Both the position numbers and the translations under genes were made by a program. From Methylocystis sp. ATCC 49242 (GTDB lineage Bacteria; Pseudomonadota; Alphaproteobacteria; Rhizobiales; Beijerinckiaceae): a DNA stretch of 64,000 nucleotides. Under the pieces are notes generated by a model. It saw only the letters and a program-made list of their open reading frames with translations. It was not told the DNA's origin and searched no databases. The DNA lies in contig NZ_KE124774.1 in the NCBI RefSeq assembly GCF_000188155.2, forward strand, positions 3,428,356 to 3,492,355, given 5' to 3'. Positions 33,729 to 58,175 of this stretch are shown here, in pieces; position 1 is the first letter of the stretch, and each line of letters starts with the position of its first letter.

Positions 33729-34226
33729 ATGCGATATCGTGCGATAACGCTGCGGATGGCGGCTGCGGCGTTCGGGTTCTTCGCCTGCACGGCCTACGCC
33801 GCGACAGAGACAACAACCTTCAACGTCCAGATCGTCATACAGAGCGCCTGCACATTATCGGCGACGACTCTGGACTTTGGCTCGTCCGGCGTTCTCTCGG
33901 CCAATGTCGACTCGACGAACACCATCACCGTCACCTGCAACAACGGTCTTCCCTGGAGCATCAGCCTGAATGAAGGCACGGGCTCCGGCGCGACGCTGGC
34001 TGTGCGCAAGATGACGGGACCGGCGTCGGCCACCGTCGATTATACGATCTACAGGGACCCGTCCCGCACGGAGGTCTGGGGCGATGGCGTTTCCTCGACC
34101 TTCACCGTGAGCGGAACCGGGACCGGCACGGGGCAGGCTCAGACAGGCTATGGCCGCGTTCCTTCGCAATCGACGCCCGCCGCCGGCACATACACCGACA
34201 CCATCACGGCTACGGTCACATTTTAG
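33729..34226 (+). CDS. Spore coat U (SCPU) domain pilin-like protein
   Basis: The 165-residue protein has a signal peptide (about residues 1-24) and one SCPU domain: SACTLSATTLDFGSSGVL, VRKMTGP, DYTIYRDPSRTEVWGDG, GYGRVPSQSTPAAGTYTDT. SCPU proteins are pilin-like subunits secreted by a dedicated chaperone-usher pair. It is the first gene of an operon with that pair. It is very like the last domain of the gene at 37391. Confidence 0.9.
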   Translation: MRYRAITLRMAAAAFGFFACTAYAATETTTFNVQIVIQSACTLSATTLDFGSSGVLSANVDSTNTITVTCNNGLPWSISLNEGTGSGATLAVRKMTGPASATVDYTIYRDPSRTEVWGDGVSSTFTVSGTGTGTGQAQTGYGRVPSQSTPAAGTYTDTITATVTF

Positions 34227-34237
34227 GGAGGGCGGGC

Positions 34238-34960
34238 TTGCGTTCGCGCTTGTTGATCGCCGTCGCCGCAGCTTTGCTGGGCCAAGCCGCCGCACAGGCC
34301 GCGTCGCTCCGGGCCGCTCCGGCGAGGCTTGATCTCATCGCTCCCGACGCCGCCGCGACGCTCAGTCTGCGCAATGAGGACTCCAGGCCCCTCAATGTCC
34401 AGATCCGCGTCTTCCGGTGGTCGCAGGAGGGAGGGGAAGAGATTCTCGAACCGACGGGCGACGTCGTCGCCAGTCCGCCGTTGACGACGCTTCCGCCGGG
34501 CGCCGATTATCTGGTTCGCGTCGTTCGTGTGACGAGATCTCAGGTCGAAGGGGAGGAGAGCTATCGATTACTCGTGGACGAACTGCCGGACGACTCGCGA
34601 CGCGTTCCCGGCGCCGTCACCGTCGTCGTTCGCTATTCGATCCCGATATTCATCACGAGTCGCGACGCCGAGCCGCCGCAGGTCGTGTGGACCGCGGAGC
34701 CGTCCAAGGCCGGAATCGAGCTGAGCGCGAAAAACAATGGCTCCCGTCATTTGCGCGTCTCCGATCTGAAACTGTCGGACGGCGGCAAGACCGTCGCCGT
34801 CCGAAACGGACTGGTGGGCTATGTGCTGCCGGGCGCCGTCATGCGCTGGTCGATTCCGCGCATGAAGGGCGGCGCTATCTTACGCCGTCCGCTCACGCTC
34901 TCCGCCAAAGGCGATTCGGGAGCGATCAATGCGACGGTCGCGGTTTCTTCCGGCCGCTAG
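34238..34960 (+). CDS. Periplasmic pilus chaperone, PapD-like
   Basis: The 240-residue protein has a signal peptide and the two-domain chaperone pattern: ARLDLIAPDAAATLSLRNED, then VTVVVRYSIPIFITSR and a C-terminal domain (GIELSAKNNGSRHLRVSDLK). It should hold SCPU subunits by donor-strand complementation. The start is TTG (34238) after an AGGGAGG site. It overlaps the usher by 32 nt. Confidence 0.88.
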   Translation: MRSRLLIAVAAALLGQAAAQAASLRAAPARLDLIAPDAAATLSLRNEDSRPLNVQIRVFRWSQEGGEEILEPTGDVVASPPLTTLPPGADYLVRVVRVTRSQVEGEESYRLLVDELPDDSRRVPGAVTVVVRYSIPIFITSRDAEPPQVVWTAEPSKAGIELSAKNNGSRHLRVSDLKLSDGGKTVAVRNGLVGYVLPGAVMRWSIPRMKGGAILRRPLTLSAKGDSGAINATVAVSSGR

Positions 34961-37400
34961 CTGGCTCCTGCTCGTGGGCGTGTCCGTCGTCACTCCCTGC
35001 GCGGCGCGCGCTCAACAAGTCCCTGATGCGAGCGGCTTGTCGAATGGAGTCGCGATCACGGCCCGCGAACTTCAGCTCGAAGTTTTCATCGACGGGGCTC
35101 CCATTGGCCTCATCGGCGCCTTCAGGCAGCTCACCGACGGCTCTCTCGCGGCGACGCGGGAAGAAACGCGGGCGATCGGTCTCGAGCCAAGACGCGAAGC
35201 CATCGGGACCGACAAGCTCGTCCACATCGATCGCCTCGCGGGCGTGCAATATCGAATCGACGAGGCGTCGCAGCGGATTTTCTTTACCGTCGCGGAAACC
35301 GCGCGCGCGCCGCGCGTCATCGACCTCAGTCCGAGGCGGACCGCGGAAAATCCGATTCCGCTGACGAGCTTCGGCGGCGTGCTCAATTACACGCTCTTTG
35401 CAAATTCCGACGGAACATTCTTTCGCTATCCGCTGAATCTGCGCGGCGTATCGGGGAATTTCGACGCGCGCGTCTTCAGCCCCTATGGAACATTGAGTCA
35501 GTCCTTCCTCGCGAATTCCGCGGTTCGCCAGCTCGGCTTCGTGCGCCTCGACACGCGATGGACCTATTCCGACCCGGAAAGGCTGATAACCTATCGCGTC
35601 GGCGACACTATTTCCGGCGGTCTTGCCTGGACTCGGCCCGTGCGCATGTCCGGCGTTCAGGTCCAGCGCAATTTTGCGCTTCGGCCGGATCTCGTCACCT
35701 TGCCGCTTCCGGTTCTGTCCGGCAGCGCGGCCGTGCCCTCCACCATCGACGTCTATGCGCAGAACGTGAAGACATATTCCGGCGCGGTGCCGTCCGGGCC
35801 GTTCGAGATCACGCATATGCCGGTTGCTAGCGGCGCAGGCACGGCGCAAGTCGTGCTGCATGATTCTCTCGGGCGTGAGACGGTCGCCACTTTGCCGTTC
35901 TATGTGTCGAGCAAGCAGCTTGCGGAAGGGCTCTATGATTTTTCCATGGAAGCCGGTTTCGCGCGACGCTTCAGTGGAATCGAATCCAATAATTATGATC
36001 GCCGGCCGATCGGATCCGCCAGCGCCCGCTACGGTCTCACGAACTGGCTTACGCTCGAGGGGCATGGGGAGGGCGGCGGCGGCGGATTGATCAACGCCGG
36101 GGCGGGCGCGGCCTTCACGCTCGGCTCCTGGGGCGCCGCCTCCCTGGCTTTGGCTGGCAGTCGTTTCGGAGGATTGACCGGCGGGCTTTTCAACGCGAGC
36201 TTCGAGACCAATATCCGCGGCGTCTCGATTTATGCGCGCAGCCAGCGCACATTCGGCAATTATCTCGATATTGCCGCGGTCACCGCCAATTGCACCTTCC
36301 TGACCGGAAATGTCTGCGCGGTTCCCCAATGGGGAACGCCGGCATTTCCGCCTTCCATTCTCGGCGGTTTCGCGGTGACGAATATTCTGCCGCCCAGAGC
36401 CATCGACCAGTTCGGCCTCGGAGTCCCGATCCCTTTCGATTCCTCGAGCTTGAGCGTCAATTTCACGCAATTGCAGAATGCGCTGGGGAACCGGACGCGC
36501 GTTCTGGGGTTCTCCTACAGCCGGCCGATCATCTTTGGCGGCTCGGCGTTTCTGTCCGCCTTCAAGGATCTCGCAAATGAACGCAATTTCGGCTTTTTTG
36601 CCGGACTGTCGTTCCCCTTCGGCAATGACATTACCCTGTCCACCGGCGCCGAGCGCGCGCCCGACGGCGTGAGATTCATTACGAGCGCGGTGAAGGCGGA
36701 AAAACGCGAGGAGGGCAGTTACGGCTGGCGCCTGCGCAATGGCGAAGGCTATCGCACGGACAGATTTGCTGGCGCCAGCTACCGCGCGTCATTTGCGCGC
36801 GTCGAAGCGAATGTTCAGCAATACGCCAATCAAACGCGCGCGACCGGCCAGGCCGAGGGCTCCATTGCAGTCGCAGGCGGCGGCGTTTTCTTCGGAAACC
36901 GGATCGACGACGCTTTCGCCGTCGTCGACGCGGGCGCGCCCGATGTCGAGGTGCAATATGAGAATCGTCCCATCGGGCGAACGAACCGCCAGGGCAAGCT
37001 GCTGGTGCCTTATCTGAATTCCTATCAGAAAAACAAGCTGTCGATCGATCCGAAAAGTGTGCCGGTCGACGCGGATGTGACGACGACGAATGAAATTGTC
37101 GTCCCTGCCGACCGCAATGGCGTCGTCGTAAAATTCGGCGTGTCGCAAACGCCGAAGGCGGCGCTCGTCGCATTCGTGGACAGCGCGGGCAAGCCATTGC
37201 GCGTCGGCGTCAGGGGAAGGCTGGAGAGCGATGGCCAGCCCTTCGTCATCGGCTACGACGGGCAGGCCTATATTCGCAATCTGTCCGATCAGAACGCCGT
37301 GCGCATCGACGTTTCCGAAGAAGGCTCTTGCGTTGCGGAATTCGAATATGCCCCGCGCGCGGGGGAGCAGACGGTCATAAGGGGCGTCATATGTCGATGA
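34929..37400 (+). CDS. Outer-membrane usher
   Basis: The 823-residue protein has a signal peptide, an N-terminal domain (LQLEVFIDGAPIGLIGAFRQ), a barrel and plug region (VSGNFDARVFSPYGTLSQSF), and C-terminal beta domains. Its end, GSCVAEFEYAPRAGEQTVIR, carries a conserved cysteine. It is the FimD/SCPU-type usher through which pilin-like subunits leave the cell. It overlaps the genes on both sides. Confidence 0.92.
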   Translation: MRRSRFLPAASWLLLVGVSVVTPCAARAQQVPDASGLSNGVAITARELQLEVFIDGAPIGLIGAFRQLTDGSLAATREETRAIGLEPRREAIGTDKLVHIDRLAGVQYRIDEASQRIFFTVAETARAPRVIDLSPRRTAENPIPLTSFGGVLNYTLFANSDGTFFRYPLNLRGVSGNFDARVFSPYGTLSQSFLANSAVRQLGFVRLDTRWTYSDPERLITYRVGDTISGGLAWTRPVRMSGVQVQRNFALRPDLVTLPLPVLSGSAAVPSTIDVYAQNVKTYSGAVPSGPFEITHMPVASGAGTAQVVLHDSLGRETVATLPFYVSSKQLAEGLYDFSMEAGFARRFSGIESNNYDRRPIGSASARYGLTNWLTLEGHGEGGGGGLINAGAGAAFTLGSWGAASLALAGSRFGGLTGGLFNASFETNIRGVSIYARSQRTFGNYLDIAAVTANCTFLTGNVCAVPQWGTPAFPPSILGGFAVTNILPPRAIDQFGLGVPIPFDSSSLSVNFTQLQNALGNRTRVLGFSYSRPIIFGGSAFLSAFKDLANERNFGFFAGLSFPFGNDITLSTGAERAPDGVRFITSAVKAEKREEGSYGWRLRNGEGYRTDRFAGASYRASFARVEANVQQYANQTRATGQAEGSIAVAGGGVFFGNRIDDAFAVVDAGAPDVEVQYENRPIGRTNRQGKLLVPYLNSYQKNKLSIDPKSVPVDADVTTTNEIVVPADRNGVVVKFGVSQTPKAALVAFVDSAGKPLRVGVRGRLESDGQPFVIGYDGQAYIRNLSDQNAVRIDVSEEGSCVAEFEYAPRAGEQTVIRGVICR

Positions 37401-38377
37401 TGCGACGTTCGCGATATTTGTGCGGGTGGATATTCGCCTTCCTGGCGTCGCTCATCGCCACGAACGCCCTTGCGCAGCACGCCTGCAGCTGGAGCGTGGA
37501 TAATGTGGCCTTTGGCGTGGCCGATGTCCTCGGAGGCGGCGCCGTCGACGTCACATCGACGGTGAACATCGATTGCAGCGGTGGGCTTGCAAGTCTCGTT
37601 GTTCGCGCTTGCCCGAATATCGGGGCCGGCTCCGGCGGAGCCACGTCGTCGACGCGACACATGAGCAATGGCTCGAATCTGCTCAATTACCAGCTGTATC
37701 AGGACGCCGCCCGCACAACGGTCTGGGGCTCCAGTTTGTGGGGTTTCGCCGACCCGCCGCCGACTCTGACGGTTCCACTCGGACTATTGGGCAGCGGCTC
37801 GCTGACGACGACGCTATACGCGAGACTTCCGGGCGGGCAGTCGACGGCGCCGGCGCTCTCCTATCTTTCGTCCTTTTCGGGCGTCAACGCGCGGCTCAAC
37901 TGGACCTTTTGCCTTCTCGTCATTTGTCCTGCGTGCAGCAGCTCAATGGAGGGCTCCAGCGATACGACCTTCACCGTCAGCGCGACAGTCGCGTCCAATT
38001 GTCTCGTCTCCGCCACGACTCTCGATTTCGGGTCGACTGGCGTGCTGAACGCCAATGTCGACTCTACGAACACGATCTCCGTCACCTGCACGAACGGCAC
38101 GCCCTGGAACGCCAGCCTCAGCGCGGGAAGCGGCGTCGGCGGAACTGTCGCGCTGCGCAAGATGACCGGGCCCGGCGGAGCGACGATCGATTACACCATC
38201 TATCGCAATGCCGGTCGCACGGAGGTCTGGGGGGATGGAACTTCCGGCACTTTCACGCTGAGCGGGACGGGCACGGGGCTCGCGCAGGCGCAAACGGGCT
38301 ATGGCCGCGTGCCGGCGCAATCGACGCCTGCGGCAGCGACTTATACGGACACGGTGGTTGTGACGATTACTTACTGA
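37391..38377 (+). CDS. Tandem SCPU-domain protein
   Basis: The ATG at 37391 overlaps the usher stop by 10 nt. The 328-residue product has a signal peptide and two SCPU domains: a divergent first one (residues about 34-180, Cys-rich, LNYQLYQDAARTTVWGSSLW) and a second (about 200-328) close to the single-domain protein at 33729. It is probably the tip subunit or adhesin of the SCPU fibre. Confidence 0.88.
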   Translation: MSMMRRSRYLCGWIFAFLASLIATNALAQHACSWSVDNVAFGVADVLGGGAVDVTSTVNIDCSGGLASLVVRACPNIGAGSGGATSSTRHMSNGSNLLNYQLYQDAARTTVWGSSLWGFADPPPTLTVPLGLLGSGSLTTTLYARLPGGQSTAPALSYLSSFSGVNARLNWTFCLLVICPACSSSMEGSSDTTFTVSATVASNCLVSATTLDFGSTGVLNANVDSTNTISVTCTNGTPWNASLSAGSGVGGTVALRKMTGPGGATIDYTIYRNAGRTEVWGDGTSGTFTLSGTGTGLAQAQTGYGRVPAQSTPAAATYTDTVVVTITY

Positions 38378-54297: not shown

Positions 54298-54475
54298 AAC
54301 TCTCGAAGCTAGTCATTACGGGCGGCAAGGTCAATGGCGCAGCCGTAAGCGATCGGGTCTGGGACATCGGCGCTGTACGCTTTTTTGAAACAGTTTTGCT
54401 GGCCCGCCGCTTGCGCCCGAGGCCCCACGAAGCTGCAACATGGCAGTTTTCGAGACCGTGCCTGATGGGGGGCGT
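54298..54475. promoter_or_regulatory. Shared divergent promoter region
   Basis: About 180 bp between the DUF2946-like gene and the SCPU-peroxidase gene. It should hold both promoters. I see no clear copper-box palindrome by eye. Confidence 0.35.
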
Positions 54476-56926
54476 ATGAGTAAACTCTTGAGAAGTCTGT
54501 GTCATGCGGGGCGCTTGCGCTCCGCGTCGCTTTTTTTGCCGGCCGTAGCGGCGATCTCGCGGAAAGCGCTTCACGCGCGGGGCGCTTTGAGAGCGTTGCT
54601 GACAGTCGGCGGCCTTTGCGGAATGACGCTTACGGCGCAGGCCACCTGTTCCATTTCGGGAACGGGTGGGGTCTCTTTCGGCGTCAGGACCGATTTGACC
54701 GCCAACAATACGGCGACAGGCTCGATGACGGCAAACGTCCTGTCGCTGTTGTCTTCGTGCCGCATAACCTTGAGTTATGGCGCCAGCGGATCGGGAACGA
54801 GACGCTTCTTGACGGGTCCGGGCGGCTACAAACTGGAATATAATCTTTATCAGGATTCCGGTTTTTCGAAAATCTGGGGCAATAGCCTCGGCGTAGATTC
54901 TGTCTCCGTCGGTCTCGGATTCAGCAACAGGACCGTATATGCAAAGCTGATAGACAAAACGGCTCCGGTCAACGGTACATATACGGATACGATTACTGCA
55001 AGCATATTCTACGGCAGCTTGCGGATGAAAAGCATTACGTGGCAGGTTTCCGTTACGACTGGCGAACCGCCGCCCAGGCCTGAAGGCCTGAAGGGCGTCG
55101 CCATTCCCACGCCGTCCAATCTTTACGACTTTGTCGCGAACAGGGAAGCCGCGATCGGTCTCGGCAAGGCGCTGTTCTGGGACATGCAGGTCGGCAGCGA
55201 CGCCGTGCAGGCTTGCGCCTCCTGCCATTTCCACGCCGGCGCGGACAATCGCAGCAAGAACTCGGTCAATCCGGGTCTTGCCCGCGCGTCTTCTCCCACG
55301 GTGGCGTGGCCGGATACGACTTTCCAGATCGGCGGACCGAACCATCAGTTCGTCGCCAGCGACTTCCCCTTCTTCCAGCGGCAAAACCCGGATGACCCGA
55401 ATTCGTCGGTCACCCGGGACTTCAATGACGTCGCCAGTTCGCAGGGCGTGTTCAATTCCCGTTTCGCTTCGGGGCCGCCCGGCCAGTCCTGGGACAATTT
55501 CTATTTGAGCTCCGACCTCATCTTCAAGGTCGGCTCGCTCAACACCCGCCGCGTCGAACCCCGGAATACGCCCACGACGATCAACGCGGTCTTCAACTTC
55601 CGCAACTTCTGGGACGGGCGCGCGCAATTTATCTTCAACGGGGTCAATCCCTTCGGCGCACGTGACGAGAGCGCCCGGGTGTTCAAGAACGTGGGCGGGA
55701 CCGTGACGCCGGTGCAGGTGCGCATCGACAACGCCAGCCTCGCGTCGCAGGCCGTCGGGCCGCCGTCGAGCAATTTCGAGATGAGCGCCGACGGCCGCAC
55801 GCTGATGGACATCGGCAAGCGGCTTCTGACCGCGCGTCCGCTCGCCCTCCAGAGGGTCGCGCCGGACGACAGCGTGCTCGGACCCTATGCGAGCCTCTCG
55901 GGCAAGGGCCTGACTGTCGAGAGCTACGCCCAGGCGATCCAGGTCGCGTTCAAGCCCGAGTGGTGGAACGGCTCCCAGGCCGTTCAGGTCGACGCGGCCG
56001 GAAACAAGACGGTGATCGCCATGCCCGGCTCGCTGGCGGCGAACCAGTACACGCAGATGCAGGCCAATTTCAGCCTGTTCTTCGGTCTGGCGATTCAACT
56101 CTACGAGTCGACGCTGGTCTCCGACGACTCGCCCTTCGACCGCTACATGGCGGGCAACAAGTCGGCGATGACGTCCTCGCAGACGGCCGGCATGAACCTG
56201 TTCTTCGGAAAAGGCAAATGCGCCAACTGCCATGGCGGCGCCGAATTCACCAACGCCAGCGTGCGCAAGACCCTCAAGGAGCCTCTGCAGCGCATGGTGA
56301 TGGGCAACGGCGGCGTCGCGGTCTATGACGAGGGCTTCTACAACATCGCCGTCACCAGGACGTCGGAGGATTTGCTCAATGGCGGCCGAGACGCCTTTGG
56401 CAAGCCCCTGTCGAACACGGCGATCGCGCAGCAGTTCGGATCGTCCGGCTTCCAGCAGATGATCGGCATTTCGCCGAATATCTCTGTGGCGCCGGGCGAA
56501 CGCATCGCCGTGATGGGCGCGGCCAAGACTCCGACCGTCCGCAACGCAGAACTCACGCAGCCCTTCTTCCATAATGGCGGCGTGTTGAATCTGCGGCAGC
56601 TGGTGGAGTTCTACAACCGCGGCGGAAACCACAAGTCATTCAACATCAATGACTTCGATGCTGATATCGAGCGGCTTGGCTTAAGCTCTGCCGAAAAGGC
56701 CCAGCTGATCGATTTCGTGAAGTCGCTGACCGACGATCGCGTGCGGCGTGACGCGGCGCCGTTCGATCACCCGGAACTCCTGGTCCCGAACGGGCATGTC
56801 GGCGATACGATCAGCGTGCAGCAGGAGGACGGTCACGCCAAGGACGCCTTCATCCAGCTGCCGGCGGTCGGCAGGAACGGCGTCGCCGGCGCCGCGCGGC
56901 CGAACTTCCTGGGGGTTGTCGAATAG
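54476..56926 (+). CDS. SCPU pilin-like domain fused to diheme cytochrome c peroxidase
   Basis: One uninterrupted frame of 816 residues. A long signal region ends LTAQA (about 56). Residues 58-180 are an SCPU domain: TCSISGTGGVSFGV, TRRFLTGPGGYKLEYNLYQD, NRTVYAKL, NGTYTDTITASIFY. After a Pro-rich linker a MauG/BCCP-like peroxidase follows, with heme motifs CASCH (C247-H251) and CANCH (C582-H586) about 335 residues apart. That spacing is wider than in classic BCCP and recalls the surface-associated cytochrome c peroxidases of methanotrophs. The start at 54476 follows a G-rich site; a Met at 54440 is possible. Confidence 0.88.
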   Translation: MSKLLRSLCHAGRLRSASLFLPAVAAISRKALHARGALRALLTVGGLCGMTLTAQATCSISGTGGVSFGVRTDLTANNTATGSMTANVLSLLSSCRITLSYGASGSGTRRFLTGPGGYKLEYNLYQDSGFSKIWGNSLGVDSVSVGLGFSNRTVYAKLIDKTAPVNGTYTDTITASIFYGSLRMKSITWQVSVTTGEPPPRPEGLKGVAIPTPSNLYDFVANREAAIGLGKALFWDMQVGSDAVQACASCHFHAGADNRSKNSVNPGLARASSPTVAWPDTTFQIGGPNHQFVASDFPFFQRQNPDDPNSSVTRDFNDVASSQGVFNSRFASGPPGQSWDNFYLSSDLIFKVGSLNTRRVEPRNTPTTINAVFNFRNFWDGRAQFIFNGVNPFGARDESARVFKNVGGTVTPVQVRIDNASLASQAVGPPSSNFEMSADGRTLMDIGKRLLTARPLALQRVAPDDSVLGPYASLSGKGLTVESYAQAIQVAFKPEWWNGSQAVQVDAAGNKTVIAMPGSLAANQYTQMQANFSLFFGLAIQLYESTLVSDDSPFDRYMAGNKSAMTSSQTAGMNLFFGKGKCANCHGGAEFTNASVRKTLKEPLQRMVMGNGGVAVYDEGFYNIAVTRTSEDLLNGGRDAFGKPLSNTAIAQQFGSSGFQQMIGISPNISVAPGERIAVMGAAKTPTVRNAELTQPFFHNGGVLNLRQLVEFYNRGGNHKSFNINDFDADIERLGLSSAEKAQLIDFVKSLTDDRVRRDAAPFDHPELLVPNGHVGDTISVQQEDGHAKDAFIQLPAVGRNGVAGAARPNFLGVVE

Positions 56927-57010: not shown

Positions 57011-57901
57011 TCATTTCGATAGCCGCGCGACGGTCTTCGCGGCCACGCCCGTCGCGCATTTCATGGTGTAGACGAAATCGACGAAGTTTCCGTCGCCGCC
57101 GTCTTCCCAATTGTAGGTCGCGCCCGCATCGTCTGTACAGAGACCGCTCTGTCTCATGAAGGTGGAGGCGTTGGCGGCGTCGCTCCACAATTCGACCGGA
57201 TTGACGAGGGCCCCCGAATATTTTTGCCAGTCCTGATAGACGACCATGCCGACGCCGAAAGTCGAATATAACGGCACGGTGAACGTCAGGCTCCATGAGC
57301 CGATCGCTGGCGTGGTGACCTTGCTCCCGTTCGACGAGTTGTAACGATAGGTGAGCACTGTTTGCCTTGAAACGACCGTGCCGGCGGCGTTCTTCGTCCA
57401 GATGAAAATGTCCTTCGAATAGGCGCCCTGGGCACTGGTCGGCTTGAAGGTCGCCGTCACGATCTGGGCCGGCAGGGTCGCTTCCGAGTGGGAGTGCAGT
57501 TTTATGGCGCCGAGGCCGGCCATCTTCAGGAAGTTCGTCGCGACCGAAAAATCGGCGTCGCCGACGAAAGTCACCGCTCCCCCTGTCGCAACAGACCTGG
57601 TCAGGGTGACATTCGTCGCCGCGCCGCCGGGCGACATATTCGAGTTCAGATATCTGGCGAGCTGCCCGGAATCCGGATTGCCGCCCTTCACCGCGGCGGA
57701 GAGCACGCCGGCGTCCAGCGCTTGTTGGAGATTCGATCTGGCGCCGATCGCGCGCGAGTAATCGACCGCTCCGCCGATGAGAAGGACCATTGGCAGAGTG
57801 GCGAAGGCGAAGATCACCGCCACGGCGCCGTTGCGGTCTCGCAAAAGCGTCCGCAATCGGTCGCCCGCGGCGGGCTGCGAGTTTTCCCAAAGACGTGACA
57901 T
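57011..57901 (-). CDS. TadG-like pilus-assembly protein
   Basis: The protein starts MSRLWENSQPAAGDRLRTLL and has the TadE/TadG N-terminus: DRNGAVAVIFAFATLPMVLL with one span, then AVDYSRAIGARSNLQQALDA. The remaining 220 residues are beta-rich and probably periplasmic. Tad proteins help to make Flp pili, but no other tad gene is in the window. The start at 57901 is chosen from a longer frame. Confidence 0.8.
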   Translation of the reverse strand: MSRLWENSQPAAGDRLRTLLRDRNGAVAVIFAFATLPMVLLIGGAVDYSRAIGARSNLQQALDAGVLSAAVKGGNPDSGQLARYLNSNMSPGGAATNVTLTRSVATGGAVTFVGDADFSVATNFLKMAGLGAIKLHSHSEATLPAQIVTATFKPTSAQGAYSKDIFIWTKNAAGTVVSRQTVLTYRYNSSNGSKVTTPAIGSWSLTFTVPLYSTFGVGMVVYQDWQKYSGALVNPVELWSDAANASTFMRQSGLCTDDAGATYNWEDGGDGNFVDFVYTMKCATGVAAKTVARLSK

Positions 57902-58175
57902 TGGCCTGTCCTTGCGCAAGGGGTTTCCTTCAGGGCTCGCATCGAAGCCGCCTCGAAGTCCCGTCATTGCACGGACATTGGGTCCAGGCCTTGCAAAAAA
58001 ATGTTAAGGCGCTGGAATTGCTTTTGTTTTCATTTACGCTCGCTTGTCGAAATTCAATAATCCCGCGGATTTTTCCGCTTCTCCCGCAGTAGTTATCAAC
58101 ATCTTCGCTCGCGGAGAGACGAACGGACCCCCGATGAAGGGCCCGGCGGACTCCATTAATGCCGTGGAAGCTGCC
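57902..58175. other. Gap between the TadG-like gene and obgE
   Basis: About 270 bp without a supported gene; it holds the TadG-gene promoter and the end of the obgE transcript. Confidence 0.4.

Follow-up and report, generated by a model that had tools for sequence, protein, structure and literature searches.

In Methylocystis sp. ATCC 49242, a single open reading frame joins an SCPU domain of the archaic pilin type to a diheme enzyme of the cytochrome c peroxidase (CCP)/MauG type. The gene lies on the forward strand of the 64,000-nucleotide stretch of contig NZ_KE124774.1 that was analysed as a whole, hereafter referred to as the window. Both families score above their Pfam cut-offs: SCPU (PF05229) matches residues 50–175 with an E value of 2.4e-20 and 73.8 bits against a cut-off of 22.4, and CCP_MauG (PF03150) matches from residue 225 on with an E value of 2.4e-23 and 83.8 bits against 25.6. 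The domain description given by an earlier, sequence-only reading of this DNA was correct, including its CASCH and CANCH heme motifs. The gene comprises the following parts.

54476..56926, + strand: whole fusion gene, 816 aa from ATG 54476, an open frame without a stop
54476..54643, + strand: putative signal peptide, residues 1–56, a hydrophobic stretch followed by AQA/TCSIS (cleavage by eye)
54644..55012, + strand: SCPU (archaic pilin-type) core, residues 57–179, from PF05229, alignment with other SCPU domains and AlphaFold
55019..55060, + strand: extra strand LRMKSITWQVSVTT, residues 182–195, a predicted donor-strand-like G strand acting in cis, from AlphaFold, the 6fm5 alignment and the pattern in P0002
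55061..55087, + strand: proline-rich linker and junction GEPPPRPEG, residues 196–204, largely common to P0002
55088..56923, + strand: long diheme CCP/MauG-type enzyme domain, residues 205–816, from PF03150 and structure matches to 6e1c and bacterial CCPs (BCCPs)
55214..55228, + strand: heme motif 1, CASCH, residues 247–251
56219..56233, + strand: heme motif 2, CANCH, residues 582–586
56612..56614, + strand: Tyr713, at the place of MauG position 294 in the alignment, where the Nitrosomonas CCP has Met

Residues 1–56 probably form a long signal peptide that is cleaved after AQA. A run of G lies just 5' of ATG 54476, and an alternative in-frame ATG at 54440 is possible, which would give a product of 828 aa. 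No promoter of the sigma-70 type was detected in the vicinity of the gene. An 11-pair inverted repeat (54642–54669) is located at the boundary between the signal peptide and the SCPU domain; it is possibly due to chance or the scar of a domain join.

The best relative, P0002, is a different sequence that is 76% identical over 81% of the query. The P0002 protein, from a contig of 2966 bases, starts inside an SCPU domain; only the tail of the domain is visible, and this tail runs unbroken into EPPPxPEGLKG at the same junction as in the window protein. The visible tail is too short for the SCPU hidden Markov model (HMM), which has no match in P0002. Aligned with the corresponding part of the window protein, the approximately 42 residues give a score of 55, against a mean of -13.8 (s.d. 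8.7, maximum 25) over 2000 shuffles. Because two different sequences carry the same join, an assembly error at the junction is very unlikely. The SCPU–peroxidase fusion is genuine and rare.

Members of this peroxidase family do not normally have such an N-terminal part. The enzyme was searched in sets of 199, 39, 385 and 369 genomes, with at most five candidates per genome scored in the set of 199 and at most two in those of 385 and 369. No fusion beyond P0002 came from these searches. In the 39 genomes of the genus, the 385 of the class and the 369 of another class of the phylum, all enzyme matches other than the window's own start at query residue 182 or later. An SCPU HMM built for this analysis, which detects the window protein, matched 0 of the best 120 of 7863 relatives. 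Among the best 80 of 517 confirmed loci in named genomes, it found SCPU in 0 of the 79 that have an N-terminal stretch of at least 20 residues. Within the genus, 3 of 39 genomes have the enzyme, one of them truncated ahead of its N-terminus where the contig stops, and 6 of 39 have SCPU; the fusion is seen only in the genome of the window. At the level of the order, SCPU is present in 26 of 397 genomes, and at that of the phylum in 57 of 398; the SCPU search in these 39, 397 and 398 genomes, confined to the phylum, gave no fusion beyond P0002, in the last set among the matches listed. Of these listed phylum matches, all ten non-window SCPU frames longer than 500 residues and one shorter frame were checked, and all eleven terminate 3–6 residues past the SCPU match, with no fusion. 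SCPU frames of 646 and 832 residues in genomes of the order, considered as fusions, are in fact two-domain tips, and L094, which showed an apparent match from residue 60, contains no SCPU. An exact-word search with residues 48–204 retrieved no further fusion and did not return P0002 either; one with a 166-aa query over the SCPU part retrieved none beyond P0002. None of 58 matching plasmid records (20 listed) reached 80% query coverage. In the literature, judged by listings and titles, no report was found of SCPU joined to a cytochrome c peroxidase or MauG, in agreement with the earlier reading, which was aware of no such described system.

The enzyme domain belongs to the PF03150 family by both its score and its CXXCH motifs at residues 247 and 582. 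It falls below the NCBIfam cut-offs for MauG proper (TIGR03791, 91.7 against 443.85) and for MbnH (TIGR04039, 114.2 against 362.85). Tyr713, invariant across 26 aligned rows, aligns with position 294 of the MauG chain, where 1iqc, the Nitrosomonas CCP, has Met; the enzyme is therefore of the MauG-like Tyr type and not of the classical BCCP Met type. In MauG, the tyrosine at position 294 serves as a heme ligand. In contrast to MauG, the MauG-like copper-homeostasis protein (PDB 3l4m, 6e1c) and bacterial diheme CCPs, the window enzyme is about 610 residues long with large insertions and carries SCPU at its N-terminus. SACCP (MCA2590) of Methylococcus capsulatus is likewise a MauG-family diheme protein of a methanotroph and is located on the surface; as far as the descriptions consulted go, and by description rather than sequence comparison, it differs in that no SCPU domain is mentioned for it (PMC4831470, PMC3621798).

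The SCPU domain was compared with 59 other SCPU domains from 21 genomes. Rod pilins and tip second domains (n = 40) have an alternating hydrophobic donor strand ahead of the first Cys, and 19 major pilins have 12–14 residues between the domain start and this Cys. In 37 of these 40 domains the protein ends 3–4 residues past the domain match; one of the other three is truncated by a contig end and two continue for 11 and 79 residues. The 19 tip first domains have no donor strand and precede a pilin domain, and eleven single-domain SCPU proteins picked for a late domain start end 0–4 residues past the match. The window domain lacks the N-terminal donor strand of rod pilins, with the mature protein starting at TCSIS (cleavage by eye), and does not end as pilin subunits do: 641 residues follow its SCPU match. 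Its core ends in ASIFYG and continues with SLRMKSITWQVSVTTGE, an alternating pattern that looks like that of a donor strand and is conserved in P0002 as T-[WM]-Q-[VI]-S-[VL]-T. In trees, the domain lies among rod pilins on a long branch, beside the pilin of one other genome, a placement that is weak given the branch length. L118_89422 (contig end) and L129_2823430 (a short match whose frame enters the next gene) were left out of the trees and included in the domain-end counts. A recent origin from the local operon was dropped, since the tree places the domain away from the window's own major pilin and tip; an origin from the first domain of a two-domain tip was dropped since the tree groups it with rod pilins. 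The donor-strand-less single-domain proteins (L181-L184, L177-L180, L131, L132, L176) form their own branch and are perhaps one-domain tip subunits.

An AlphaFold model of the SCPU domain places a strand at model residues 126–139, after strand F, with pLDDT (predicted local distance difference test) blocks of 93–94, and the range 1–141 of this model aligns with PDB 6fm5. Accordingly with this model, the extra strand LRMKSITWQVSVTT is predicted to fill the domain's own groove and complete its fold. A phmmer search of the PDB with just the SCPU part gave no match. The sequence itself shows the fusion, the absence of the donor strand, the additional strand-like segment, the lack of a free C-terminus and the position of the tyrosine. 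Without a donor strand, with a groove filled as predicted and with an enzyme at its C-terminus, the domain should not polymerise by donor-strand exchange. It resembles CsuA/B and other archaic SCPU pilins in its SCPU fold and in two cysteines at or near conserved places, whereas their donor strand is N-terminal and supplied by the next subunit. In the engineered self-complemented CsuA/B (6fm5), a strand attached at the C-terminus fills the groove, as is predicted for the window domain; there the arrangement would be natural, and an enzyme comes next. CsuE-type two-domain tip adhesins also have a first domain without an N-terminal donor strand, but their second domain is a pilin, and the window domain groups with pilins, unlike their first domains. 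Monomeric self-complemented FimA (PMC6615685) is a naturally occurring pilin whose groove is closed from within; the strand that it inserts is its N-terminal one, in the opposite orientation, and it is also able to polymerise, whereas the window domain would use a dedicated later strand.

The window also contains a separate archaic chaperone-usher operon, identified by Pfam matches and located 16 kb from the fusion gene.

33729..38377, + strand: archaic chaperone-usher operon, outside the fusion
33729-34226, + strand: major SCPU pilin
34238-34960, + strand: chaperone
34929-37400, + strand: usher
37394-38377, + strand: two-domain SCPU tip

The sequence-only reading had proposed that the SCPU part serves for export or attachment and presents the redox enzyme at the surface, possibly in a fibre. 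An attachment role agrees with the lectin-like modules of many relatives and with the surface MauG-family proteins reported in the consulted part of a Methylococcus study (PMC4831470). Neither export by the usher nor display in a fibre is supported. The SCPU domain lacks an N-terminal donor strand, its groove is by prediction occupied by a later strand of the same domain, and it has no free C-terminus for an anchor of the CsuC type, the archaic chaperone described as anchoring the pilin's C-terminal carboxylate (PMC4654587); the usher operon is 16 kb away. Fibre display, taken as the first hypothesis, was dropped on this anatomy. Since the operon has its own rod and tip subunits, this anatomy and the model together make fibre display unlikely. 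In trees of SCPU domains, the major pilin and the second domain of the tip are close sisters, which suggests a recent duplication or conversion.

The N-terminal slot of the enzyme is variable among its eleven closest relatives, ten of which were covered by the Pfam scan (P0004 was left out). P0003 and P0005-P0010 have a Cys-rich domain without a Pfam name, P0004, P0011 and P0012 have only a signal and linker of about 30–95 residues, and P0002 has the SCPU tail. The Cys-rich domain (about 170 residues), in the same slot as SCPU, has repeated 'CPxNTxVKSISGR...I...C'-like motifs; that of P0003 has no credible PDB match (one match, E 0.042). More distant relatives carry other modules: in the best 120 of the 7863, precomputed Pfam annotation lists ricin-type modules in 43, F5/8 in 2 and PA14 in 1. 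In the enzyme tree, SCPU and Cys-domain proteins are interspersed, with the window protein (P0001) beside P0003 and P0002 beside P0006/P0009, which suggests exchange. None of 200 bootstrap trees (0%) unites P0001 and P0002; the approximately unbiased (AU) test does not reject a single clade of the two fusions (p 0.0615), so two separate swaps are not shown. The G+C content at third codon positions (GC3) is 0.63 in the SCPU part versus 0.855 in the enzyme, which would fit a foreign origin of the former without proving it.

Taken together, these findings favour, with a probability of about 0.6, a self-complemented, non-polymerising SCPU module on a MauG/CCP-like diheme enzyme that serves in attachment at the surface or matrix. 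The protein would be exported through Sec, matured with two c-type hemes and act as a MauG/CCP-like diheme oxidoreductase. In its SCPU domain, the N-terminal donor strand would have disappeared and a groove-filling strand would have been added after strand F; the domain would thereby fold alone, require neither chaperone nor usher and not be joined into a pilus. It may then be a transferable module for binding or attachment that keeps the enzyme at the cell surface or matrix, much as lectin-like domains probably do in relatives. Chaperone independence, surface location, a binding target and the enzyme substrate are all suppositions of this scheme. On the proposal that the donor strand moved to the C-terminus in nature as it is moved by structural biologists in the laboratory, yielding a stable monomeric binding module that places a heme enzyme on the cell surface or a target, we are evenly divided; pilin domains would then serve as exchangeable affinity modules of secreted enzymes as well as fibre bricks.

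Several points weigh against the self-complemented module. That the extra strand pairs with strand F was read from strand lists and aligned ranges, not coordinates, and the domain model was built from 55 rows, almost none of which extends into the extra strand. The full-length model (39 rows, none of them a separate SCPU row) gives a pLDDT of 24–47 for blocks 1–110, although the strands 111–123 and 126–139 recur there with block means of about 61–63. The alternating pattern of SLRMKSITWQVSVTTGE is stated without a computed chance level. The domain on its long branch among rod pilins has no close known parent, and the lectin-like modules are C-terminal in all 8 relatives scanned, whereas SCPU is N-terminal. 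A GC3 as low as that of the SCPU part, found in 2 of 152 windows from mechanically chosen open reading frames of the 64,000-nucleotide stretch, is not extreme and may partly reflect the domain's composition. The low GC3 and the composition step at the junction would also suit a young non-functional chimera or an assembly error, in which SCPU was joined by accident and has no role, as would the single full-length example; we give this very little credence, as the frame is uninterrupted and P0002 independently has the same join and strand pattern.

A location in the periplasm deserves more attention, although we regard it as unlikely: the self-complemented domain would bind a periplasmic partner or dimerise. 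Classical diheme CCPs are periplasmic, and no export signal was noticed apart from the signal peptide. In another methanotroph, the MauG-like enzyme CorB is reported to reside mainly in the periplasm (PMC3912023). Against this, many long relatives have lectin-like modules, more typical of outer-surface proteins, and MCA2590 and MCA1906 are listed, in the section available, in the Methylococcus surface fraction (PMC4831470). That the fusion is instead taken up by the genome's chaperone-usher system, at the tip of or within a peroxidase-bearing pilus, is quite improbable. A complete archaic operon does lie nearby, and tip subunits likewise lack an N-terminal donor strand; but the groove is predicted to be filled in cis, the chaperone would find no free C-terminus to anchor (PMC4654587, as far as seen), the second pilin domain of two-domain tips is missing, and a 610-residue heme enzyme would presumably need to traverse the usher.

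If the self-complemented attachment module is correct, the fibre-forming SCPU domain could leave pilus assembly by a simple change of strand position to become an enzyme accessory module. The 140-residue domain would offer a small, direct test system for what SCPU domains bind, and the fusion would exemplify how redox enzymes of methanotroph-like bacteria gain surface modules through domain exchange.

Adjoining the fusion gene on the opposite strand is a TadE/TadG-like protein (57011-57967); besides weaker matches, copies with 58–59% identity occur in just 2 of the 39 genus genomes, and no other tested window gene matches within the 14-kb stretches around those copies. In two Verrucomicrobia genomes (L036, L041), the open frame of the enzyme extends about 1340 residues further upstream, as far as the locus edge, and perhaps encodes a giant adhesin-like protein ending in this peroxidase.
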